Shown piece after piece: positions 20,192-34,316 of a stretch of DNA of 34,316 bases. The notes below the pieces were generated by a model that searched no databases, was not told the origin of the DNA, and was given only the letters and a program-made list of their open reading frames with translations. The stretch comes from Naasia sp. (GTDB lineage: Bacteria > Actinomycetota > Actinomycetes > Actinomycetales > Microbacteriaceae): the NCBI RefSeq assembly GCF_025465545.1, contig NZ_JAODMK010000008.1:1-34316 (forward strand), given 5' to 3'. Each line of letters opens with the position of its first letter. Position 1 is the stretch's first letter. The position numbers and the translations under genes were made by a program.

Positions 20192-20267
20192 GTGGGCGTA
20201 GCTCAGTTGGTAGAGCGCTGGCTTGTGGTGCCGGATGTCGCGGGTTCGAGTCCCGTCGTTCACCCCA
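20192..20267 (+). tRNA. hisT: tRNA-His (anticodon GTG)
   Basis: Acceptor GTGGGCG, D-arm GCTC-AGTTGGTA-GAGC, anticodon arm CTGGC-TTGTGGT-GCCGG, T-arm GCGGG-TTCGAGT-CCCGT, and acceptor CGTTCAC with discriminator C and encoded CCA. The base before it (20191) is G, opposite the discriminator C, supplying the G-1 identity element of tRNA-His. All stems pair well. Confidence 0.97.
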
Positions 20268-20308: not shown

Positions 20309-20656
20309 ATGGAGATGGGTCCCGACGAGTTCGAGCGGCTCGTCGTCGGCGAGCTGGACGCGCTGCCGGACGACATGGTGGACGGCCTCGAGAACGTCGT
20401 GTTCGTGGTGGAGGACAGGCCCGAGGACGGCTCGCTCGACCTGCTCGGCTCCTACGACGGCGTCGCCCTCACCGAGCGCGACCGCTACGGCTTCGGCGAG
20501 ACGCCCGATCGGATCGTGCTCTTCCGGGAGCCGCTGCTCGCGATCAGCGAGGATGAGGACGAGCTGCGGGACGAGATCCACGTGACGCTCGTGCACGAGA
20601 TCGCGCACTACTACGGCATCGACGACGACCGGCTGCACGAGCTCGGCTGGGCTTAG
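20309..20656 (+). CDS. Minimal zincin-like metallopeptidase (DUF1025 family)
   Basis: The 115-residue protein is a very short metalloprotease fold. Its only strong motif is HEIAHYYG at 96-103, giving the HEXXHXXG zinc site, followed by IDDDRLHELG at the C-terminus, as in PF06262 minimal zincins. The first 90 residues are acidic with a beta-rich core (LENVVFVVEDRPEDG, RIVLFREPL). Structural members of the family show a zinc-binding site, but physiological substrates are not established. No signal peptide is seen. ATG 20309 was chosen, with GAGG about 8 nt upstream; ATG 20315 is a possible alternative two residues later. It lies 42 nt after tRNA-His and is followed by palindromic element copy B. 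Confidence 0.88.
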   Translation: MEMGPDEFERLVVGELDALPDDMVDGLENVVFVVEDRPEDGSLDLLGSYDGVALTERDRYGFGETPDRIVLFREPLLAISEDEDELRDEIHVTLVHEIAHYYGIDDDRLHELGWA

Positions 20657-20757: not shown

Positions 20758-21030
20758 CTAGAAGCGGAGGGAGTCGACCTCGCCGTTGTCGTCCTCCACC
20801 GGGTCGCTGTCGCGCTTGTCGAACGAGTAGGAGACGTGCAGCACGTCGCCCACGTGGCGGGACTCGCCTGCCACGTACCAGTACAGGCGCTCCTGGCCGC
20901 CGACCGAGCCCAGCTCGCTGATCTCCGGCTCCGGCGTGCCGCCCCGAAGGACGCGGTGCTCGACGCGACCCTCGAAGGGTCCATCGACGAACCGGACCAC
21001 GTACTGGACATCAGAGGGGGTTTCGCTCAT
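20758..21030 (-). CDS. Small hypothetical protein, 90 residues
   Basis: This is an acidic soluble protein with a clear beta-strand pattern: VQYVVRFVDGPFEGRVEHRV, then ERLYWYVAGESRHVGDVLHV and SYSFDKRDSDP. Alternating aromatic and charged residues suggest a small barrel or sandwich. I do not recognise a family. TAACGT (21037-21042, minus strand) sits 6 nt before the ATG, a leaderless arrangement, and the intervening bases GGAGCC are too close to act as a normal Shine-Dalgarno. It is divergent from the carboxypeptidase homologue and convergent with the zincin gene. Codon use is in line with neighbours, so the frame is probably real. Confidence 0.72.
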   Translation of the reverse strand: MSETPSDVQYVVRFVDGPFEGRVEHRVLRGGTPEPEISELGSVGGQERLYWYVAGESRHVGDVLHVSYSFDKRDSDPVEDDNGEVDSLRF

Positions 21031-21094: not shown

Positions 21095-22339
21095 ATGGCT
21101 GAGGGGCGGGAGCGGAACCGGGTCCTCGTCGCGACCGTCGCCGTGCTCCTCGTCGGAGCCGCCGTCTACACGCCCGCCGCGCTGCTGGCACCACTCCCCC
21201 GGGTGGCCGCAGCTCCGGTCGAGGTGCGCCCGCCGACGGCAGGCGATGCGTCGGCTCCTGCGCTTCCGGATGCCGGAGCGAGCGGGATCACCCTCTCCGC
21301 CCTCGCCGATCCCATCCCCGGCGGAAGCGCCGATGCTGTCCCGATCGCGGCCGCGGCCAAGCTGGTCACCGCCCTCGTCGTGCTGGATGCGCGTCCTGTC
21401 GAGCAGGGCCGCAGCGGCCCCTCTGTGCCGGTGACCGCGGAGGACTACGCGTCCTACGCGCGCTACTCGGCGGAGGGCACGCGAGCGGTGCGCGTGGTCG
21501 CTGGCGACACCTGGACCGAGCGCGAGGCGCTGCACGCCTTGCTCATCGCCTCGAGCAACAACCACGCGGAGATGCTCGCGCGCTGGGCGTTCGGCTCCCT
21601 GGACGCCTACGTCGCCGCCGCGAATGCGTGGCTGCACGAGCACGGGCTGACGCACACCGTGGTGACCGACTCGACCGGCCTGTCTGCGGACAGCGTCGGC
21701 ACCGGGGCGGACCTGGCGAGGCTCGCCGCCCTGGCCATGACCGACCCGTTCGTGGCGGAGGCGGTACCGCTCGACGCCGCGACCACGACCCGTGGCACCG
21801 ACTTCGACAGCACCATCCAGTATCGACCGGGCGACGGCATCACCGGCATCTCCCGCAGCTACACGGACGAGGCGGGCGTATGCCTGCTCTTCTCGATCGC
21901 GACGACGGCGGGAGCCGACGACGTCCCCCTCTACGGCGCGATCCTCGGCGAGCCCTCCTATGCGGACCTCGACGCCGACGTGGACGCGCTGCTCGCGTCG
22001 ATCGAGGGCTCGGTCGCCCGCCTCGACGTGCTCTCGGCGGGGACCCCGGTCGCCCGGTACACGAGCGCCTGGGGCGGGGTGGCCGACGCCGTGACGGTCG
22101 CGCCCGTGACCGAGATCGGCTGGGCGAGAGCGGCGGCCGGGGCGCCGACGCCCGCGGTCGACACCGTCCCGATCGCGACCGCCCGCAAGGGCGCAGCGGT
22201 GGGCACCGCCAGCCTCAGCCCGCAGCTCTCGACCGCGCTCGTGCTGGACCGTGCCTTGACCGACCCCGGCCCGCTGTGGCGCCTGGGGCATCCGGGAGTG
22301 GTGATCCCCCAGTTCGTGCGCTGGGTCTCGGGCGGCTAG
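21095..22339 (+). CDS. D-alanyl-D-alanine carboxypeptidase homologue (S11), probable pseudoenzyme
   Basis: The 414-residue protein has an N-terminal membrane anchor or signal (about 9-33, [20 protein letters not shown]) and then the penicillin-binding fold of S11 peptidases, which trim peptidoglycan stem peptides outside the membrane. The SxN motif is intact (SSN at 153-155). However, the SxxK position reads AAAK (86-89, GCC-GCG-GCC-AAG), so the acylated serine is alanine. The KTG position reads SRS (253-255, within [11 protein letters not shown]). Flanking sequence is otherwise conserved ([27 protein letters not shown]). It probably cannot hydrolyse peptidoglycan or be acylated by beta-lactams, and may act as a scaffold or regulator. 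Its stop overlaps the convergent aspS stop by 4 nt. Confidence 0.9.
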
Positions 22340-24126
22340 GCCTTCGGCGCCGCAGGCACCGCAGGCACCGTCTGCACGCCGAGTGTGCGGTAGAGCTCGG
22401 TCTGCTGGCCGCCCTCGAGCAGCGCGGGCGCGCCGGTCAGCGGGTCGTTGCCGCCCCCGGACTTGGGGAACGCGATCACGTCGCGGATCGAGTCGGTTCC
22501 GGCCAGCAGCGACACGATGCGGTCGAACCCCATCGCGAATCCGCCGTGCGGCGGCGCACCGAACGCGAACGCCTGCAGCAGGAAGCCGAACTTGTCGCGA
22601 GCCTCCTCGTCGGAGATGCCCATGACCCGGAAGACCCGCTCCTGCAGCTCCCGCGTGTTGATGCGGATGCTCCCGCCGCCGATCTCGTTGCCGTTGCAGA
22701 CGATGTCGTACGCGTAGGAGAGCGCCGACTCCGGCTCGGTGTCGAAGGTGTCGAGGTACTCGGCCTTGGGCGAGGTGAAGGCGTGGTGCACGGCCGTCCA
22801 CGCGCCCGACCCGACCGCGACGTCGCCGCTCGCGACGGCCTCCCCGGCGGGCTCGAAGAGAGGGGCGTCGACCACCCAGGTGAACGCCCACGCGGCGGGG
22901 TCGATGAGCCCCTGGCGCTCGGCGATCTCGCCGCGGAGGGCCCCGAGCAGGCCCCGCGACGGCTTCGGCGCACCCGCGGCGAAGAAGATGCAGTCGCCCG
23001 GCTGCGCTCCGGTATGGGCGGCGAGGCCGGCCCGCTCCTCGTCGGTCAGGTTCTTGGCCACCGGGCCGCGGAGCTCGCCGTCCTCGCCGACCAGAACGTA
23101 GGCGAGCCCCTTGGCGCCGCGCTGCTTGGCCCACTCCTGCCAGGCGTCGAGGGCCCTGCGCGGCTGGTCGGCCCCGCCGGGCATCACCACGGCGCCGACG
23201 TACGGGGCCTGGAAGATGGCGAAGGTGCCGCCCGCGAAGTAGTCGGTGCACTCCACCAGTTCGAGACCGAACCGGAGATCCGGCTTGTCGGACCCGAAGC
23301 GGCGCATCGCATCCGCGTAGGTCATTCGCGGGATGGGCGTCGCGAGCTCCACGCCGATGGTGCCCCACATCGCGGTGAGCACGTCCTCGGCGAGCGCGAT
23401 CACATCCTCCTGGTCCACGAAGCTCATCTCGACGTCGAGCTGGGTGAACTCGGGCTGGCGGTCCGCCCGGAAGTCCTCGTCCCGATAGCAGCGGGCGATC
23501 TGGAAGTAGCGCTCGAAGCCGCCGACCATCAGCAGCTGCTTGAACAGCTGGGGGCTCTGCGGCAGTGCGTAGAACGTCCCCGGCTTGAGGCGCGCCGGCA
23601 CGAGGAAGTCGCGCGCTCCCTCGGGCGTGGAGCGGGTGAGCGTGGGGGTCTCCACCTCCACGAAGTCCCTGTCCACGAGCACCGACCGAACCGCAGCGGA
23701 CACCTTGGAGCGCAGCTTGAGGGGGTACGCGGCCGCCTCCCGGCGGAGATCGAGGTAGCGGTAGGCCAGGCGGGTCTCCTCGCCGGGCTCGTCGTCCAGC
23801 TGGAAGGGCAGCACGTCGCTCGCTGCCAGGACCGTCACGGCGGTCGCCTCGAGCTCCACCTCGCCGGAGGCGATGGCCGCGTTGACGTTGCCGGCCGGCC
23901 GCTCGCGGACGAGGCCGGTGACGGTCACACACGACTCCACCCGAAGGTCCTCGGCCGCGGCGACCTGCGCGTCACGAAGGGTGACCTGAGCGACGCCGGA
24001 GGAGTCGCGCAGGTCGAGGAACGCCACCCCGCCGTGGTTGCGGATGCGGGCGACCCAGCCGGCGAGGGTCACCTCGGAGCCGGCGTCCGATCGGCGGAGC
24101 GCGGAGGCGGTGGTGGTTCTGTACAT
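22336..24126 (-). CDS. aspS: Aspartyl-tRNA synthetase
   Basis: The 596-residue class IIb synthetase charges tRNA-Asp. An N-terminal OB-fold anticodon-binding domain ([20 protein letters not shown]) is followed by the catalytic core. Flipping-loop and motif 2 regions are seen in [20 protein letters not shown] and [20 protein letters not shown]. The bacterial GAD insertion lies in about residues 290-430, and motif 3 is [15 protein letters not shown]. The long length and insertion identify the bacterial type. Whether it is discriminating or also makes Asp-tRNA-Asn is not decided by these motifs. ATG 24126 has AGGGAAG upstream. The last codons contain a tandem 9-bp repeat (22352-22369), giving a VPAVPA tail. 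The stop shares CTAG with the opposing gene. Confidence 0.97.
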
Positions 24127-24189
24127 GTGCTTCCCTGCGGGTCGAACGCTGCTCGCGGAGGTGCGGGCGGGGGCCCGAGACCGCCGACC

Positions 24190-24195
24190 AGCCTA
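24190..24195 (-). promoter_or_regulatory. Probable -10 element of aspS
   Basis: TAGGCT on the minus strand gives a leader of about 60 nt before the aspS ATG. No T-box or other recognisable leader structure was seen. Confidence 0.35.
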
Positions 24196-24233
24196 GGACA
24201 CCTGCCGCCGGGCGACGGCGGGGCCTCGGGGTC

Positions 24234-25100
24234 TCAGGCTCCGTACTCGAGCGGCAGGGCCGGCACGGCGGACCATTCCTCGAGGGAGCCGTCGTAGATC
24301 CGCACCTCGGAAACGCCGAGCTCGGCGAGGGTGAGTGCTCCCGCCGCGGCGGAGATCCCGGCGCCGCAGTAGAGCAGCACCTCCTCGTGGCCGGTGATCC
24401 CCTGGCCGACGTACGCGGCCTTGATCTCGCGGGCGCCGCGGACGGTGCCGTCGGGCGCGAAGAGGTCGCGGCTGGAGACGTTGACGCTGCCGGGGATGTG
24501 GCCGCGCCGGGTGTGGCGCGTCGGGTCCGCCCCGGAGTAGCCGCTCGCAGGCAGCGTGCACACCAGCGGGCGCCAGTCCCGCTGGGTGCGAGCCAGCAGG
24601 TCCTCCTTGGTGACCCACGCCTCCCGAGGAGAGCTGGGCGTCCAGGTCGGCACGGGCACCGGCGGCGCCTCCTCGCCGGACGCGACCGCTGCCCCCGACC
24701 GCTTCCAGCCGGCGAAGCCGCCGTCGAGGACGCGCACGTCCATGCCGATCCAGCGGAGGAGGTACCAGAGCCGCGAGGCGAACATCATGCCGGTGCCGTC
24801 GTAGACGACCACCCTGCGGTCCGCGGCGATGCCGAGTGCGGCGAGCCGGTCCGCGACGACCTGCGCCTCGGGGTGCGTGAAGCTGAGTGGCGCCGTCGGA
24901 TCGCTGAAGTCCCGCGCCATGTCCACGTGCCGGGAGGCGGGGATGTGGCCGGCCAGCCACTTGGGGTAGCCGCTCTCCCTGCGATAGTCACCGTCCTCGC
25001 GGGGCGGGTGCAGCACGAGTGACGCGTCGAGCACGGCGGGAGGCGTCGCCCCGGAGAGCTCGCGGCGGAGGGCGGTGACGGAGACGAAGGGAGATGCCAT
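24234..25100 (-). CDS. Sulfurtransferase, two rhodanese domains (3-mercaptopyruvate sulfurtransferase-like)
   Basis: The 288-residue cytoplasmic enzyme has two rhodanese folds. The N-terminal one (about 5-140) is inactive: its loop, GTGMMFASRLWYLL, has no cysteine. The C-terminal one carries the persulfide-forming Cys245 in CGAGISA (245-251). The loop CG-x-G-x-x-A is closer to mercaptopyruvate sulfurtransferases (CGSGVTA) than to thiosulfate rhodaneses (CRKGVT), so mercaptopyruvate is the likelier donor. GHIPGSVNVS and HIPASRHVDMARDF are the typical rhodanese entry motifs. GAGAGGG and TAACGT (25111-25116, minus strand) support ATG 25100 and a promoter separate from the kinase gene upstream. 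Confidence 0.92.
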   Translation of the reverse strand: MASPFVSVTALRRELSGATPPAVLDASLVLHPPREDGDYRRESGYPKWLAGHIPASRHVDMARDFSDPTAPLSFTHPEAQVVADRLAALGIAADRRVVVYDGTGMMFASRLWYLLRWIGMDVRVLDGGFAGWKRSGAAVASGEEAPPVPVPTWTPSSPREAWVTKEDLLARTQRDWRPLVCTLPASGYSGADPTRHTRRGHIPGSVNVSSRDLFAPDGTVRGAREIKAAYVGQGITGHEEVLLYCGAGISAAAGALTLAELGVSEVRIYDGSLEEWSAVPALPLEYGA

Positions 25101-25155
25101 TGCCCTCTCCACGTTAGACCCCGCGCCCCCGCCTGCGCAGGAGGGCGGGCATCTC

Positions 25156-25719
25156 TCACTCGAGAAGGAGCCTGCCGTCGACGCGGACGTCGGCCAGCAG
25201 GTCGGGCCGCTCACGTGCGAAGAAGGCGCGCTCCTGCGCCGCCCAGCGCTCCCAGTGGAGGGCGTACGCCTCCCCGTCCCGCTGCAGGGCACGCCGCTTC
25301 CGTTCGTCCTCGGCCAGATCGATCCAGATTCCGAAGGTCGCCATGGCGCGGTTCGCCGCGCTGAGAGAACCCGACCCCTCGACCACCAGCGGCCGCCGGG
25401 GATCGACCGTCAGCACGTCTTTCGGCCGGTTGCTCGTCCAGTCCCAGCGGGGCACCCGGTGCCGGGCGAGCACCACGGCCGCGACCGCGCTGCTCGCCTG
25501 CTGCAGCCCGTCCCAGCCCGGATACATGTCGTCCAGCCGAACGAGGGTGGCCCCCAGCGCGGCCGCGAGCGCCGCACCGACCGTCGTCTTCCCGGAGCCG
25601 GAGCCGCCGTCCACCAGTACGACCGGACGGCCTGCGCTCGCCCGTGCCCGACGCTCCAGCTCGCCGAGCATCTCCGCGGGCCCGAGCCCTGCGGTGTCGG
25701 CAGAGGTCACCTCAGCCAC
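25156..25719 (-). CDS. P-loop kinase, uridine kinase-like, coupled to the ECF transporter
   Basis: The 187-residue cytoplasmic nucleotide-binding protein has Walker A GGSGSGKTT (38-46) and the strand VVLVDGGSGSGKTT typical of the uridine kinase/phosphoribulokinase branch. A DDMYPGWDGLQ segment matches the 'DDFY' substrate loop of nucleoside kinases. RPLVVEGSGSLS follows like their Walker B region, and a basic lid segment (DERKRRALQRDGEAY) completes the fold. The phosphorylated substrate is unknown. GTG 25719 lies inside the end of the T-component gene (8-nt overlap), so the kinase is translationally coupled to a thiamine-type transporter. Phosphorylating an imported B1 precursor is a tempting but unproven role. 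Confidence 0.82.
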   Translation of the reverse strand: MAEVTSADTAGLGPAEMLGELERRARASAGRPVVLVDGGSGSGKTTVGAALAAALGATLVRLDDMYPGWDGLQQASSAVAAVVLARHRVPRWDWTSNRPKDVLTVDPRRPLVVEGSGSLSAANRAMATFGIWIDLAEDERKRRALQRDGEAYALHWERWAAQERAFFARERPDLLADVRVDGRLLLE

Positions 25720-26509
25720 CGCCGACGAAGTTCCACTCGCCCGCGGCGACCGACGCCGCCACCGCGACCGCTCCGATCAGGCCGCTCGAGGCGAGCAGCA
25801 CCGCGTCCACGGCGCCGAACCGCGATGCGCGCGCCCAGGTGCGGCGCACGGGTGCACCGAACGCCCGCGCCTCCATGGCGGTCGCCAGGGTGCTGCCCCG
25901 GCGGATGGCGAGGACCAGGAGGGCGAAGGCCTGCCCGGCGAACCGTCGCACGCGGCCGGTGTCCGCAACTCCGCGCGCCCGGCGGGCCAGTTCGAGCGCC
26001 CGCCAGTCCTCCTGGAAGAGGGTCACCAGCCGGAGCCCGCCGAGCGCCCCGAGCACGAAGCGGGACGGAAGCCTGAGGCGCTGCGCGAGGCCGTCGGCGA
26101 GGTCGGTGGGGTCCACGGTGAGGAAGAGCGCGACGGAAGGCAGGCCGATCGCGAGCACGCGCAGCACTGTGGCGATCGCGAGCTCGACGGAGCCGTCGGA
26201 GATCTGCACGAGCAGCCAGGAGACGTAGACCCTGCCCTCCGGGCGCCCGTACAGCAGGACGGTGAGACCGGCGAACGGGGCGGCCGCCCAGATCGGCAGG
26301 GTGCGGATCCAGAGGGTGCGCCAGGGGACGCCGCATGCTGCCAGCAGCACGCTCTCGAGCGCCAGCGCGACCGACGCGGAGACCCAGTCGAGCGAGAGCA
26401 CGAGTGCGACGGCGAGCAGGGCGGACGCGCCGAGCTTGGCGACCGGGTTCGCGGCGGCGAATCCGCGCGCCGGGACCCGGACGACGGGCCGCTGGGCGAC
26501 GGCGGTCAT
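25712..26509 (-). CDS. ykoC: ECF transporter T component (EcfT/CbiQ/YkoC type)
   Basis: The 265-residue integral membrane protein couples the ATPase to the substrate-binding S subunit. There are several hydrophobic helices near the N-terminus (LGASALLAVALVLSLDWVSA) and the middle (VELAIATVLRVLAIGLPSVA), and one at the C-terminus. The two coupling motifs are in the cytoplasmic helices: ARRARG (about 190) and MEARAFG (about 220), the Ala-Arg-Gly/Ala signatures through which T subunits contact the ATPases. ATG 26509 overlaps the ATPase stop as ATGA, and the gene's own end overlaps the kinase start. The gene symbol is by analogy with the YkoEDC system, since the S component and riboswitch match it. 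Confidence 0.9.
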   Translation of the reverse strand: MTAVAQRPVVRVPARGFAAANPVAKLGASALLAVALVLSLDWVSASVALALESVLLAACGVPWRTLWIRTLPIWAAAPFAGLTVLLYGRPEGRVYVSWLLVQISDGSVELAIATVLRVLAIGLPSVALFLTVDPTDLADGLAQRLRLPSRFVLGALGGLRLVTLFQEDWRALELARRARGVADTGRVRRFAGQAFALLVLAIRRGSTLATAMEARAFGAPVRRTWARASRFGAVDAVLLASSGLIGAVAVAASVAAGEWNFVGGG

Positions 26510-27966
26510 GCCGGCACCGCCACCGTCCGCGACGGGAGGGCGAGCGTCGCGGTGGCGAGCGCCTCCGCGAAGGCCTCATCGTGCGTGACCGCCACCACGC
26601 CGGTTCCGTCGTCCACGAGGGAGCGCAGCAGCAGCACCAGCTCACGCCAGGTGCGGGCGTCCTGGCCGAAGGTGGGCTCGTCGAGCACCAGGACCGCGGG
26701 CCGGGTCGCGAGCGCCGTTCCCACCGACAGGCGTCGCTTCTCGCCTCCGGACAGCGTGAAGGGATTCGCGGCGGCGAGCCGGACGAGACCCAGCCGCTCC
26801 AGCAGCTCGTCGACCCGGGCGTCGATCTCGCCCTGCGGCAGGCCGAGTGCGCGCGGTCCGACGGCCAGCTCAGCCGCCACGTCGGCCGCCAGGAACTGAT
26901 GCTCCGGCTCCTGGAACACCGTCCCGATGCGGGAGAGCAGATCTCGCGAGCGCCAGCGGATCGGCTCCGGTCCGCGCCCCGCCGCCAACCGCTCTCCCGC
27001 TCGGAGGGAGCCGCCGACCGGCGGAAGCAGCCCGGCGAGAGTGAGGCCGAGGGTCGTTTTCCCCGCCCCGTTCGGTCCGGTCACGGCGAGCGCGCTGGAT
27101 TCGCGCACCCCGATCCGTCCCACCTCGGCGAGAGCGGCACCTCCTCGGCCGACGGTCAGCTCCTCGCCGGTCAGGAGCGGACCGCCCGGCGTGGGATGCC
27201 ACGTGGGGAGGTCGATGGCCCGGCCGGGGATCCAGACCCCGTCCGCGGCGAGCCGGTCGGCATCCCGCTGCAGCAGGCTCGGCGGGCCCGCGGCCGCCAC
27301 GCCGCCACCGGGAGCGAGTACGACGACGCGGTCCACGAGGTCCGCCCACACCGCCGTCCGGTGCTCGACGACGACGAGGGTGGCGCCCGTCCGGTCGAGG
27401 AGGCGTTCGACGGCCTCCCGGACCTCCCGAACGCCGACCGGGTCCAGATTGGCGGTGGGCTCGTCGAGCAGCACGATGCCGGGGCGCATGGCGAGCACCC
27501 CGGCGAGCGCGAGCCGCTGCTTCTGCCCGCCTGACAGCGTCGAGGTCGCTGCGTCGAGCGGGAGCCGGAGCCCGACGCCGTCGAGCGCCTCTCCGACCCG
27601 AGGCCAGATCTCCCCCGGCGGCACGCCGAGGTTCTCGCAGCCGAACGCGACGTCGTCGCCGACCCGGGCGAGCACGATGCCGGCCTCCGGATCCTGCAGG
27701 ACGAGGCCTGCACGACCACGCTGCCCTGTCGCCGGCCGTCCGTCGAGGAGCAGACTGCCCTCCTCCTCGCCCTCGTCCTCGCCGCCGAGGAGGCCGGCGA
27801 TGCCTTGGAGCAGGGTCGACTTGCCCGCGCCGGACGCACCGAGCAGCAGCACCCGCTCCCCCGGCGCGATGGCGAGGTCCAGCCCGCGGACGGCGAAGTC
27901 GCGCCGTCCGGCGTGCCGCCAGCCCCACCCGCGGGCGACGACCGCCGCGGGAACCGTGCTCGCCAT
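26506..27966 (-). CDS. ykoD: ECF transporter ATPase, two fused nucleotide-binding domains (YkoD type)
   Basis: The 486-residue protein fuses the two ATPase subunits that most ECF transporters make separately. Domain 1 has Walker A GASGAGKST (43-51), signature LSGGQKQRLAL and Walker B IVLLDEPTANLD. Domain 2 has GPNGAGKTT, LSGGEKRRLSV and VLVLDEPTFGQD. A short acidic insert (GGEDEGEEEGS) follows the first Walker A helix. ATP hydrolysis drives the S subunit to flip and release its vitamin inside. ATG 27966 was chosen because domain 1 starts there; an in-frame extension to 28059 lies within the upstream S-component gene. Spacing from that gene is 11 nt, and it overlaps the T component by 4 nt. 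Confidence 0.93.
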   Translation of the reverse strand: MASTVPAAVVARGWGWRHAGRRDFAVRGLDLAIAPGERVLLLGASGAGKSTLLQGIAGLLGGEDEGEEEGSLLLDGRPATGQRGRAGLVLQDPEAGIVLARVGDDVAFGCENLGVPPGEIWPRVGEALDGVGLRLPLDAATSTLSGGQKQRLALAGVLAMRPGIVLLDEPTANLDPVGVREVREAVERLLDRTGATLVVVEHRTAVWADLVDRVVVLAPGGGVAAAGPPSLLQRDADRLAADGVWIPGRAIDLPTWHPTPGGPLLTGEELTVGRGGAALAEVGRIGVRESSALAVTGPNGAGKTTLGLTLAGLLPPVGGSLRAGERLAAGRGPEPIRWRSRDLLSRIGTVFQEPEHQFLAADVAAELAVGPRALGLPQGEIDARVDELLERLGLVRLAAANPFTLSGGEKRRLSVGTALATRPAVLVLDEPTFGQDARTWRELVLLLRSLVDDGTGVVAVTHDEAFAEALATATLALPSRTVAVPA

Positions 27967-27977
27967 CGGCCGGCGGG

Positions 27978-28598
27978 TCAGACCCTGGCCGTCGACTCGC
28001 GGCCGGAGGCGAACCGCGACAGCGCACCGGTCCGCGCGATCGCGCGGGCGAGCAGCCACGACAGCAGCCCGGCGATCACGGCGCCGGACAGCACGGAGCT
28101 GAGCACATAGACGACGCCGAAGGGGACGTCTGCTCCCGCGTACCAGAGCACGAGGTCGTTGACCCCGTTGAAGAGCCCGGCCGCCGCTCCCGCGAGGACG
28201 GCGACGGTCGGCGTCCAGCGGGAGTAGAGGAACAGCGCGAGCACGATCTCCGCGCCGAGGCCCTGCACGATGCCCGCCTCGATGGTGAGGAAGCCGCCCC
28301 AGACATTGCCGACGAGGGCCGAGACGACCGCGGCGACCACCTCGGTGAACAGAGCCGCCCCGGGCTTGCGGATGATGATCCCGCCGAGCACGCCGGCGAA
28401 CAGCCAGACGCCGTTGACGAGACCCTGCAGCCCGGGCAGGGCAGCTTGCAGGAAGGAGCCGGGAACCTGGTAGCCGAGGTTCCAGGCGAGGAACACCAGG
28501 CCGGCGGCGACGCCGAGCACGGCGGCCACGACGATGTCGACGACCCGCCAGCGATAGCGGGAGCGCCGGGCGGTGGAGGAGGGTGCGGTGGTGGTCAC
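27978..28598 (-). CDS. ykoE: ECF transporter S component, YkoE family (thiamine or HMP uptake)
   Basis: The 206-residue membrane protein binds the vitamin for a group I ECF importer. About six helices are visible, beginning RVVDIVVAAVLGVAAGLVFL and including VNGVWLFAGVLGGIIIRKPG and AVVAAVVSALVGNVWGG. The patterns WNLGY near the N-terminus and FTEVVAAVVSALVGNVWGG are family-typical for YkoE. The Bacillus relative binds thiamine, and a TPP riboswitch lies directly upstream here, so a thiamine or hydroxymethylpyrimidine substrate is well supported. GTG 28598 has AAGG 9 nt before it; a GTG at 28631 is a less likely start. It heads a four-gene operon with the ATPase, T component and kinase. Confidence 0.9.
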   Translation of the reverse strand: MTTTAPSSTARRSRYRWRVVDIVVAAVLGVAAGLVFLAWNLGYQVPGSFLQAALPGLQGLVNGVWLFAGVLGGIIIRKPGAALFTEVVAAVVSALVGNVWGGFLTIEAGIVQGLGAEIVLALFLYSRWTPTVAVLAGAAAGLFNGVNDLVLWYAGADVPFGVVYVLSSVLSGAVIAGLLSWLLARAIARTGALSRFASGRESTARV

Positions 28599-28739: not shown

Positions 28740-28847
28740 CGACACTACCCCCTCCATCAGCGCTGCAGGGAGGCGAGGACGGCGAGCACCCGGCGATGCC
28801 GCCCCATCCGGCCGTCAACCCGGTTCAAGGGGGATAACCTCCCGGCC

Positions 28848-28853
28848 TAGGCT
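28848..28853 (+). promoter_or_regulatory. Leaderless-type -10 element of the LLM oxidoreductase gene
   Basis: TAGGCT is followed by 7 nt and then GTG 28861, with no ribosome-binding site. Confidence 0.5.
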
Positions 28854-28860
28854 GAGGCCC

Positions 28861-29787
28861 GTGGAATTCTGCCTCTTCACCGAACCTCAGCAGGGCTACG
28901 ACTACGAGACTCTGCTGCGCAGCGCGCAGGCCGCGGAGCGCCTCGGCTTCGACGGCTGGTTCCGCAGCGACCACTACCTGAAGATGGGCGACTTCTTCGA
29001 CGGGCTGCCCGGATCGACCGACGCCTGGACGACTCTGGCAGGTCTGGCACGGGAGACGTCCCGCATCCGGCTCGGCACGCTCGTCTCCTCGGTCACCTAC
29101 CGCCACCCCGGGGTGCTCGCCATCCAGGTCGCCCAGGTGGATCAGATGTCGGCCGGCCGCGCCGAGCTCGGGCTGGGCACCGGCTGGTATGCGGAGGAGC
29201 ACGCCGCGTACGGCATCCCCTTCCCGCCGCGCCGGTTCGACCTGCTCGAGGAGCAGCTGGCCATCGTCACAGGCTTCTGGTCGACGCCGCTCGGGCAGAA
29301 GTTCGACTTCGCCGGCGAGCACTACACACTGACCGACTCCCCCGCGCTGCCGAAGCCGGTGCAGTCCCGGGTGCCGGTCATCGTGGGCGGCGGCGGTCCC
29401 AAGCGCACTCCGCAGCTCGCTGCCCGGTTCGCCACCGAGTACAACATCGGCTTCGTGGACGACGAGGCAATCCAAGCCGCCTTCGGGCGGGTCCGGGCAG
29501 CCGCCGAGGCGATCGGCCGAGAGCCGGGCGACCTGCGCTACTCGATCGCCCAGCCCACCGTGGTGGGCCGCACCGAGGAGGAGTTCCGCGCCAGGGCCGA
29601 GCGGATCGGAGCGGATCCCGCCGAGCTCCGCCGGCTCAACCTGGGCGGAACCGTCGGCGAAGTCGTGGACCGGATCGGCCGCTTCTCCGACTTCGGCGCC
29701 GCGCGGGTGTACCTGCAGGTGATCGACCTCGCCGACGAGGACCAGCTCGAGCTGCTCAGCAGCGAGGTTCTGCCCGCCTTCCGCTGA
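28861..29787 (+). CDS. LLM-class F420-dependent oxidoreductase
   Basis: The 308-residue cytoplasmic enzyme has the luciferase-like monooxygenase TIM barrel. Characteristic pieces are ERLGFDGWFRSDHYLKMG, RIRLGTLVSSVTYRHPGVLA, the phosphate-binding AELGLGTGWYAEEHAAYG, the loop FPPRRFDLLEEQLAIV and the late RVPVIVGGGGPKR strand. This arrangement matches TIGR03560-type actinobacterial proteins, which use F420 rather than FMN. F420 use is inferred from the family, not from a residue I can point to. Substrates could be aldehydes, alcohols or xenobiotics. GTG 28861 is leaderless. It is divergent from the thiamine operon and separated from glgX by about 130 nt with a weak hairpin. Confidence 0.88.
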   Translation: MEFCLFTEPQQGYDYETLLRSAQAAERLGFDGWFRSDHYLKMGDFFDGLPGSTDAWTTLAGLARETSRIRLGTLVSSVTYRHPGVLAIQVAQVDQMSAGRAELGLGTGWYAEEHAAYGIPFPPRRFDLLEEQLAIVTGFWSTPLGQKFDFAGEHYTLTDSPALPKPVQSRVPVIVGGGGPKRTPQLAARFATEYNIGFVDDEAIQAAFGRVRAAAEAIGREPGDLRYSIAQPTVVGRTEEEFRARAERIGADPAELRRLNLGGTVGEVVDRIGRFSDFGAARVYLQVIDLADEDQLELLSSEVLPAFR

Positions 29788-29791
29788 CGCT

Positions 29792-29815
29792 GGGCCGTTG
29801 CCGTCGCCGCGGCCC
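29792..29815 (+). terminator. Weak terminator-like hairpin after the LLM gene
   Basis: GGGCCG (29792-29797) and CGGCCC (29810-29815) form a 6-bp stem with a 12-nt loop, 5 nt after the stop. It has no U-run, so function is uncertain. Confidence 0.3.
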
Positions 29816-29880
29816 GGCTCGCGCGCCATTGCATCCCGCAGCCGGGGCGTCAACCATCCGTGCCGAACTGCGCGAGTCGC

Positions 29881-29886
29881 TAGTTT
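29881..29886 (+). promoter_or_regulatory. Probable -10 element of the glgX-treY operon
   Basis: TAGTTT lies about 30 nt before the glgX start, giving a leader of roughly 24 nt that carries GGAGG. The -35 is not obvious. Confidence 0.4.
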
Positions 29887-29916
29887 GGGAAACGCTGCCC
29901 ATCGACTGGAGGACTC

Positions 29917-32124
<2,208 letters not shown>

Positions 32125-32169
32125 ATACCCTCCGGGCAGCGGGCTCCGGAAGGAATGGAAGAAAACACC

Positions 32170-34316
32170 ATGACGAAGAAGCCGATCTCGACCTACCGGG
32201 TCCAGGTCCGCAAGGCGTTCGATCTGGCCGAGACCGCAGGAATCGCGGACTACGTGCACGACCTCGGCGCGGACTGGATCTACTTCTCCCCCGTGCTGGA
32301 GGCCGAGCCGGGCTCCGACCACGGCTACGACGTCGTCAACCACGCTCGGGTCGACCCCGAGCGTGGTGGCGGCGAAGGACTGGACCGCGCGGTCGCAGCG
32401 GCGCGGAAGAACGGGCTCGGCGTCCTCATCGACATCGTGCCCAACCACGTCGGCGTCGCCACGCCCGTGCACACCCGCTGGTGGTGGGACGTGCTCGAGA
32501 AGGGGCAGGAGTCGGCGTACGCGAGAGCCTTCGACATCGACTGGGACTTCGGGGGCGCGCGCGTGCGGCTGCCGGTGCTGGGCTCGGCCGACGACCTCTC
32601 CGCGCTCCAGCTCGTGGAGGTGCATGCCGCCGAAGGCGAGGCGGAGTCCTTCGAGCTTCGGTACTACGACCACCGCTTCCCGGTCGCGCCCGGCACCGCT
32701 CTGGCCGGCGAAGACCCGGTCGCAGTGCATGCGCGCCAGAACTACGAGCTGATCGACTGGAGACGGGCGGACTACGACCTCAACTACCGCAGATTCTTCG
32801 CGGTGAACACGCTCGCCGCGGTGCGCGTGGAGGTTCCGGACGTGTTCACCGAGTCGCACGAGGAGATCCTCCGCTGGGTGCGCGAAGGGCTCACCGACGG
32901 CCTGCGCATCGATCACCCCGACGGCCTCTTCGATCCCGGCCGCTACCTCGACGACCTCGCCGAGGCCACCGGCGGCGTCTATGTGCTGGTGGAGAAGATC
33001 CTCGAGGGCGACGAGCAGCTGCCGACGTCGTGGAAGACCGACGGGACCACCGGCTACGACGCCCTCGCCGACATCGACCGCATCCTGGTCGACCCGGCGG
33101 GCGCCGAGCCGCTCGCGCGCCTCGACGGCGAGCTGACCGGCGGCGAGCCGCTCGACTGGCACGAGCTCATCCACGGCACCAAGCGGGCGGTCGCCGACGG
33201 CATCCTCCGCTCCGAGGTGCTGCGGCTCGACCGGGTGGTCGCGGACCGGATCGACCGCGGGTCGGAGCCGTCCGATCGGGTCGCCGACGCCATCGCGGAG
33301 CTCCTCGCCTGCTTCCCGGTGTACCGGTCGTACCTCCCCGAGGGCCGCGAGCACCTCGACGAGGCCGCTGAGCTCGCGAAGCGGCACCGGCCCGACCTCA
33401 CCGCCACCATCGACGCCCTGCTCCCGGTCCTCGGTGACGTGGCGGAGCCCGCCGCGCGCCGGTTCCAGCAGACCTCCGGCATGGTGATGGCGAAGGGCGT
33501 CGAGGACACCGCGTTCTACCGCTACACCCGGCTGACGAGCCTGACCGAGGTGGGAGCGGACCCCGCCGAGTTCTCGGTGGCGCCGGACGAGTTCCATGCC
33601 CGGCAGCAGCGCCGCCTCACGACGATCCCCTCCTCGATGGTCGCCCTGTCGACCCACGACACGAAGCGCGGCGAGGACGTGCGCGCCCGGATCAGCGTGC
33701 TGGCGGAGATCCCCGAGGAGTGGGCGACGGCACTGCGCGAGCTGCGGCGGCTCGCCCCGCTCGGCGACGGGGCGCTGGAGAACCTGCTCTGGCAGGCGAT
33801 CCTCGGCGCCTGGCCCGCCAGCCGGGAGCGCCTGCACGCCTACGCCGAGAAGGCCTCCCGCGAGGCGGGCGACTCGACCACCTGGACCGAGCCCGACGAG
33901 GCCTTCGAGAACCGCATGCACGCGCTCATCGACGCCGCCTTCGACAACGAGTCGGTCTCCGCGATCCTCGCGGGCCTCCTCGAGCGGGTCGCCGCTCCCG
34001 GCTGGTCGAACTCGCTCTCCGCGAAGCTCCTCCAGCTCACCGTTCCTGGCGTGCCGGACGTGTACCAGGGCAGCGAGCTGTGGGAGATGTCGCTCGTCGA
34101 CCCCGACAACCGGCGCCCGGTGGACTACACCGTCCGCCGCGACATCCTGGCGCGGGTCACCGGGGGCTGGCTGCCGCCGATCGACGAGAGCGGTGCCGCC
34201 AAGCTGCTCGTCACCACCCGCGCCCTCCGGCTGCGGCGCGAACGGCCGGAGTTGTTCACCCGACACGCCCCCGTCGAGGCCTTCGGCCCGGCCGCCGCGC
34301 ACGTGATCGCCTACGA
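32170..34316 (+). CDS. treY: Malto-oligosyltrehalose synthase TreY (C-terminus beyond window)
   Basis: At least 715 codons are open to the window edge; full TreY proteins are about 750-800 residues, so only the tail is missing. It isomerises the reducing-end glucose of maltodextrin to an alpha-1,1 linkage, making maltooligosyltrehalose for TreZ. The opening [20 protein letters not shown] and [20 protein letters not shown] is typical. Catalytic residues by homology are Asp248 (LRIDHPDG), Glu275 (VLVEKILEG) and Asp497 ([10 protein letters not shown]). [11 protein letters not shown] and [13 protein letters not shown] are further TreY marks. ATG 32170 has GGAAG upstream at normal spacing; an in-frame ATG at 32155 abuts AGGA and is less likely. 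treZ is expected to follow. Confidence 0.95.

Follow-up and report, generated by a model that had tools for sequence, protein, structure and literature searches.

Why is a full-length gene of the D,D-carboxypeptidase family kept once the residues for its chemistry have gone? The question is raised by the 34,316-nucleotide stretch of Naasia sp. DNA analysed here (the window), in which an open frame with an ATG start, 21095-22339 on the + strand, encodes a protein of 414 amino acids, referred to below as the SRS protein. It matches the Pfam family Peptidase_S11 (PF00768) above the cut-off of 27.6 bits and displays SSN at residues 153-155 (21551-21559), the SxN motif of active S11 enzymes. It lacks the nucleophilic serine of SxxK, which reads AAAK, as well as KTG or a close variant of it, which is replaced by SRS. 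The initial annotation had placed these degenerate motifs at 21350-21361 and 21851-21859 within a full-length frame, and both the letters and the coordinates are borne out; the motif register agrees with that of this genome's intact paralogue (G000:C26, L015), whose SITK, SAN and KTG fall in the same columns. The gene and its parts are:

21095-22339, + strand: putative S11-type pseudoenzyme (SRS protein), 414 aa; open frame, PF00768 62.6 bits, assigned by clade and synteny
21122-21193, + strand: N-terminal hydrophobic segment, predicted membrane anchor, residues 10-33 (Kyte-Doolittle; the end at 33 is an estimate)
21350-21361, + strand: degenerate SxxK, A86-A-A-K89 (codons for residues 86-89)
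21551-21565, + strand: SxN region, S153-S-N-N-H157, with clade-specific Ser154 and His157
21851-21868, + strand: KTG position, S253-R254-S255 (codons 21851-21859), followed by Y-T-D

Residues 10-28 have a mean Kyte-Doolittle value of 2.15, and this hydrophobic segment suggests an N-terminally anchored, outward-facing protein. The SRS protein is probably membrane-anchored and would face the wall.

A recent inactivating event in this one strain would be expected to leave close relatives that all carry SxxK and KTG, as the initial annotation had pointed out. Instead, all nine Naasia genomes (the genus as defined in the genome collection, belonging to the Microbacteriaceae) have the gene, the eight besides the window genome at 52-63% identity, and all nine combine A-x-x-K at residues 86-89 with SRS. 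Inactivation in a single strain is therefore rejected. Two carriers have an orthologue whose reading frame is broken, by true loss or sequencing error, namely G001 (Naasia aerilata; L007, L022 and L025), where the break lies near residue 45 and the pieces were kept separate, and G437 (L170). An intact S11 paralogue also occurs in nine out of nine Naasia genomes, with SITK and KTG in each, SAN in eight and SAG in one, and in the window genome it is the one further S11 match besides the SRS protein. The paralogue belongs to the sister group and is 38-39% identical to the SRS protein over its length, but keeps SITK/SAN/KTG where the latter has AAAK/SSN/SRS, and, unlike the SRS-protein gene, it has neither a zincin gene nor transporter genes within 1.5 kb (L012-L020).

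Across the family, a profile of 32 members (A3) was run on 398 Microbacteriaceae genomes and the motifs were read in the fetched loci. Orthologues of the clade are present in at least 104 of the 398 genomes and at least 22 of 78 genera, one carrier, G075, having been recognised only through its locus and not by the profile list. Motif states were counted in 104 distinct sequences from 104 genomes (103 carriers and the 68%-complete G007; L212 of G075 left out). KTG is found in none of them, a count that is circular when taken alone because the groups were separated by the presence of KTG or KNG; its position reads SRS in 77, SLS in 12, TRS in 8, YRG in 4, and VRS, TRA and TRG in one each. Residue 86, the nucleophile position, is Gly in 68, Ala in 19 and Ser in 17, so that the serine is lost in 87 of the 104 sequences, whereas residue 89 is Lys in 100 and Arg in 4. 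At the SxN position we find SSN in 98 sequences, GST in 3, ASN in 2 and DSG in 1, and the preservation of SxN claimed for the window gene thus extends to most of the clade. Two checks of the grouping are free of the circularity, paralogues fetched by position and the tree. In 20 carrier genomes outside Naasia the other S11 gene was fetched by position only, and it has Ser-x-x-Lys and KTG in 20 out of 20 cases. Some members from genus g8 have Ala/Gly/Thr-rich insertions, either in the linker that precedes the S11 domain (L063, L168) or in the loop that follows the SRS strand (L063, L065).

An order-level search of 198 genomes matched 37, of which 15 belong to the Microbacteriaceae and 22 to other families. 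Six strong matches of the family coded f15 have KTG at one locus each, and second matches are present there as well. From 16 weak loci outside the Microbacteriaceae, 9 were fetched and 8 aligned; two have KNG, one shows no motif (poor alignment) and the rest stop before KTG. No clade member outside the Microbacteriaceae was seen among the loci read in these 198 order genomes. Spread by plasmids was considered and rejected, as tblastn matches in 27 plasmid records are all below 60% identity and none covers 80% of the protein.

As determined from a tree of 77 chosen rows (42 clade sequences out of 105 known members, 29 intact and 6 outgroup), the clade forms one branch with 100/100 support, apart from the intact S11 paralogue. 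The tree contains one KTG change and, within the clade, three changes of the serine state whose direction it leaves unresolved; L212 is a long branch, and its placement inside the clade is unsure. The loss of catalytic residues is hence a property of one branch spanning 22 genera, not of one strain, and KTG appears to have been lost once, the nucleophilic serine variably. Selection was gauged by Nei-Gojobori dN/dS, a rough estimate here, as some pairs share a genome and distant pairs are near saturation. For 13 genome pairs with both genes taken from the same genomes, the values range from 0.060 to 0.520 in the clade and from 0.047 to 0.565 in the intact paralogue, the clade gene being lower in 6 pairs and higher in 7. 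This comparison with an intact S11 paralogue, which the initial annotation had proposed, yields values of about equal size, though the clade gene evolves somewhat faster in all three Naasia pairs (0.36-0.38 versus 0.25-0.36). Fourteen further clade pairs give 0.079-0.476, and dN/dS stays well under 1 throughout the 27 clade pairs, indicating purifying selection within the roughness of the estimates.

These data bear on a rival account, that of a slowly decaying duplicate whose conservation is historical and whose product has no function. The faster rate in Naasia, the broken frames in G001 and G437, and the fact that the gene is unseen in about three quarters of the 398 family genomes, among the matches listed, are what such decay would produce, and the last two indicate that the gene is not generally essential. 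Decay is nevertheless strongly disfavoured by dN/dS well below 1 in every clade pair, by the single clade across 22 genera, and by the retention of the gene where no intact S11 protein was found (see below). With KTG in none of 104 sequences, degenerate motifs in nine of nine Naasia genomes and dN/dS close to that of the intact paralogue, the homologues lend support to the maintained pseudoenzyme that the initial annotation had suggested. As the motif loss is kept in many related bacteria, the SRS protein very likely has a job other than cutting.

Structure prediction is consistent with a preserved fold. The S11-domain model (residues 55-322; best of five models), built on a 4-sequence alignment, reached pLDDT 66.3 and pTM 0.73, and the full-length model pLDDT 34.7. 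Foldseek returned 151 matches at E <= 0.001 for this four-sequence domain model, the best being E. coli PBP6 (3it9_C; E 4.8e-11, TMq 0.67), and PBP5, PBP-D2, PBP4 and K15 structures were among the further matches; the prediction that the initial annotation had called for thus gives an S11/PBP-like domain. The solved sequences nearest to profile A3 are 6muq, 6azi and 4k91, and the alignment with 4k91 covers profile positions 64-377, extending past the S11 domain. With the S11 D,D-carboxypeptidases PBP5, PBP6 and DacA the SRS protein shares the common fold and the order of the three motif regions; it differs from them in the missing serine nucleophile, in the replaced KTG and in newly conserved Ser154, His157, Arg254 and Ser255.

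Given these replacements, the normal S11 route of acylation, with D-Ala-D-Ala or with penicillin, would not be expected to be open to the SRS protein. In S11 enzymes, KTG holds the beta-lactam carboxylate. The initial annotation had considered a decoy for beta-lactams, and a decoy or sensor that binds penicillin could make use of the PBP fold seen in the domain model. However, the nucleophile is lost in 87 and the carboxylate-holding KTG in all of the 104 sequences, and no beta-lactamase or regulator gene was detected among the window neighbours scanned, which renders this role very improbable. Residual acylation is conceivable in the members that keep the serine, because 17 of the 104 sequences do so and Ser86 and Lys89 are both kept in 16 of 99 core members.

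To describe what has taken the place of the catalytic site, we compared the 99 core members of the clade (g16, L212 and G437 left out) with 47 intact sequences, the placement of residues around the groove resting on the alignment and not on model coordinates. Lys89 is invariant in the core (99/99), mostly without its serine, as is Asn155 (99/99). Ser154 is found in 99/99 core members, whereas intact sequences have Ala in 44/47; His157 (97/99) contrasts with an intact Tyr in 47/47, and Trp140 (99/99) with Leu in 37/47. At the former KTG, position 253 is Ser or Thr in 98/99 core members instead of Lys, position 254 is Arg in 87/99 and Leu in 12/99 instead of Thr, and Ser255 (97/99) replaces Gly. 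Ser153 is Ala in 2/99 core members, so the constraint near SxN in the wider clade is better assigned to residues 154-157. Mean conservation in the clade exceeds that of the intact group at residues 138-160 (0.75 versus 0.64), falls below it at 83-93 (0.66 versus 0.84) and at 248-262 (0.75 versus 0.80), and is about equal over the S11 core (0.63 versus 0.65).

Since Lys89, Ser154 and Asn155 are strictly kept in the core, a rewired chemistry is conceivable, and the SRS protein might be a neofunctionalised enzyme whose site has been rebuilt (Lys89 with Ser154 or Ser153, His157, Arg254 and Ser255) for a different wall substrate. The invariance of Trp140, the 97/99 occurrence of His157 and Ser255 and the elevated conservation at 138-160 are in agreement with this notion. 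In contrast, all four sequences of genus g16 have exchanged Lys89 for Arg and have lost Asn155 along with KTG, and the divergent member L212 reads AGIAK/SGN/TNS, yet these genes remain full length at the standard locus; moreover, Arg254 is Leu in 12/99 core members, and replacing the Gly of KTG should, in known S11 enzymes, obstruct the substrate strand. We consider a new enzyme improbable. The pattern in g16, where Ser154, His157 and Arg254 are retained, points to binding rather than serine chemistry, and its full-length genes fit a non-catalytic role.

We propose, with a probability of roughly 0.68, that the SRS protein is a maintained, vertically inherited, family-wide pseudoenzyme of the LMW PBP/D,D-carboxypeptidase fold, whose groove binds a wall peptide or a partner; this reading draws on motif states, tree, shared locus, substitution rates, the newly conserved residues, the domain model and the genomes in which no other S11 match was found. 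The reshaped groove, presumably lined by Lys89, Ser154, Asn155, His157, Arg254, Ser255 and Trp140, would hold its ligand without cutting it. The ligand might come from the peptidoglycan, as a stem peptide or a precursor, or might be a loop on a wall enzyme that partners the protein; in wall synthesis the protein may then have the part of an adaptor, a regulator or a sensor. A more far-reaching version, which we regard as possible but rather unlikely, is that the clade was neofunctionalised as a receptor or an enzyme: following a single KTG loss in an ancestor among the Microbacteriaceae, the D-Ala-D-Ala pocket would have been rebuilt around Lys89, Ser154-Asn155-Asn156-His157 and Ser/Thr253-Arg254-Ser255, recognising or acting on a family-specific wall structure, and kept in lineages without a catalytic S11 enzyme. 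The B-type peptidoglycan of the Microbacteriaceae is one structure to which the SRS protein could be linked.

The pseudoenzyme reading leaves room for a partner, and the initial annotation had named an active carboxypeptidase as one. Thirteen genomes (genera g2, g31 and g8) chosen for a single A3 match, and three others, were searched with PF00768, a profile that might overlook a strongly diverged S11 protein. In 13/13 chosen genomes the SRS-clade protein is the only S11 match, each time at the locus of this gene, and the other three have two matches. As the 13 were selected for one hit, the proportion says nothing about frequency, and among the matches listed from the 398-genome profile run, further carriers in g8 are represented by two or three. 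Judged by PF00768, these genomes retain the gene although no intact S11 enzyme can be recognised in them. With the clade protein standing alone in all 13, a simple partnership with the intact S11 paralogue cannot be its general role.

The partner could instead be another D,D-peptidase, either an S13 enzyme of the DacB type or a PBP of class A/B, for which the SRS protein would be a dedicated regulator or activator. It would touch this enzyme directly, in the way that inactive LytM domains control autolysins. This is a special case of the pseudoenzyme reading and our best specific guess within it, put forward tentatively. S13 matches occur in 16/16 genomes searched, including all 13 without another S11 match. 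This presence says little, however, because S13 also occurs in 8/14 control genomes, and the S13 matches lie elsewhere in the genomes, not adjoining the SRS-protein gene. Precedents come from two papers, on the structural role of PBP 2B (PMC5656894) and on DipM of Caulobacter, an inactive LytM protein (PMC10336132). DipM likewise combines a peptidoglycan-hydrolase fold lacking catalysis with a conserved groove; it has, however, an endopeptidase fold of another family and known partners, whereas for the SRS protein S13 enzymes and PBPs are candidates.

Inactive relatives within the superfamily itself are already on record, and the section of PMC12073871 concerned describes a class A-type protein that keeps the fold while its nucleophile is changed to Gly. 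That protein has lost the base lysine (Ala50) and retains K-A-G, whereas the SRS clade keeps the lysine in 100/104 sequences and loses KTG; no conserved clade is described in that section, unlike the situation here. Our full-text literature searches, covering titles and abstract openings among the matches listed and with subscription papers largely outside their reach, found no conserved inactive S11 clade. LMW PBPs are read as enzymes on sight, but here a whole orthologous group is without the chemistry motifs, including proteins above the Pfam cut-off for D-alanyl-D-alanine carboxypeptidase. In 13 genomes a clade protein alone matches S11, so that such genomes would be wrongly counted as having an S11 carboxypeptidase. 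The clade also offers a natural series (serine kept, serine lost, lysine lost) in which the role of a PBP fold devoid of catalysis can be studied.

Synteny was read in 108 loci, that is, 104 genomes and 4 second fetches, many misses having just 1.5 kb of flank. The usual order is metallopeptidase gene, SRS-protein gene and then, in the opposite orientation, the genes for a P-loop kinase, CbiQ and an ABC protein. In the window, the neighbours are:

20309-20656, + strand: zincin-like metallopeptidase (PF06262), 115 aa by homology; Pfam 101.8 bits, start inferred
22336-24126, - strand: class II D/K/N synthetase by Pfam (PF00152, 398.3 bits), convergent neighbour, which we take to be aspS, aspartyl-tRNA synthetase
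25156-25719, - strand: P-loop kinase-like protein, convergent and downstream; Pfam AAA/kinase matches below cut-offs; 88/108 loci
25712-26509, - strand: CbiQ/EcfT-type transport protein (PF02361, 67.8 bits); downstream on the opposite strand in 96/108 loci
26506-28059, - strand: double ABC ATPase adjoining CbiQ (PF00005, 160.6 bits, 2 stretches); 64/108 loci, with flanks often too short

The 3' end of the SRS-protein gene overlaps aspS by 4 bases; that the frame is an artefact or a shadow ORF of aspS is refuted by its protein-level homologues, synteny and dN/dS. The zincin lies upstream on the same strand in 95/108 loci, within 250 bases of the gene in 82/91 (measured between match ends and without the 4 second fetches). 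In Naasia the two are farther apart because a 90-aa gene (20758-21030, - strand) sits in between; this conserved protein has no Pfam match, is found downstream of the SRS-protein gene in other genera and is matched by tblastn in 58/108 loci. The mechanical ORF of the zincin, from 19784, starts too early, and a tRNA-His (gtg; 20192-20267, + strand) lies inside it. Within the flanks fetched, aspS adjoins the gene in 1/108 loci, that of the window, where aspS and a rhodanese gene (22336-25292, - strand) are placed between the SRS-protein gene and the kinase and transporter genes. Two loci of genus g66 (L069, L071) show no zincin, CbiQ, kinase or ABC gene in about 3 kb of flank, so in g66 the gene lies elsewhere.

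For comparison with empty sites, 28 genomes without a high-scoring member were picked. The zincin is present in 28/28. In 22 of them the first gene recognised after it is that of the kinase, the rhodanese or the 90-aa protein, with 0.7-1 kb of other sequence in between in four of the 22; among the remaining 6, nothing was recognised beside the zincin in 5 and the divergent member of G075 was found in 1. Zincin and kinase genes occur together without the SRS-protein gene in 21/28 genomes, and the neighbourhood therefore gives no function. The rhodanese gene follows the zincin in 3/28 of these genomes.

Frames at 25343-26899 and 26927-28102 (+ strand) were discarded as neighbour markers, having no Pfam match and running antisense to the CbiQ and ABC transporter genes (- strand). 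These shadows give tblastn matches of 31-69% between genera. Further shadow ORFs of this GC-rich DNA, very long like these two, at 28825-31875 and 31993-34302 (- strand), are antisense to luciferase-like and isoamylase-like genes with Pfam matches.
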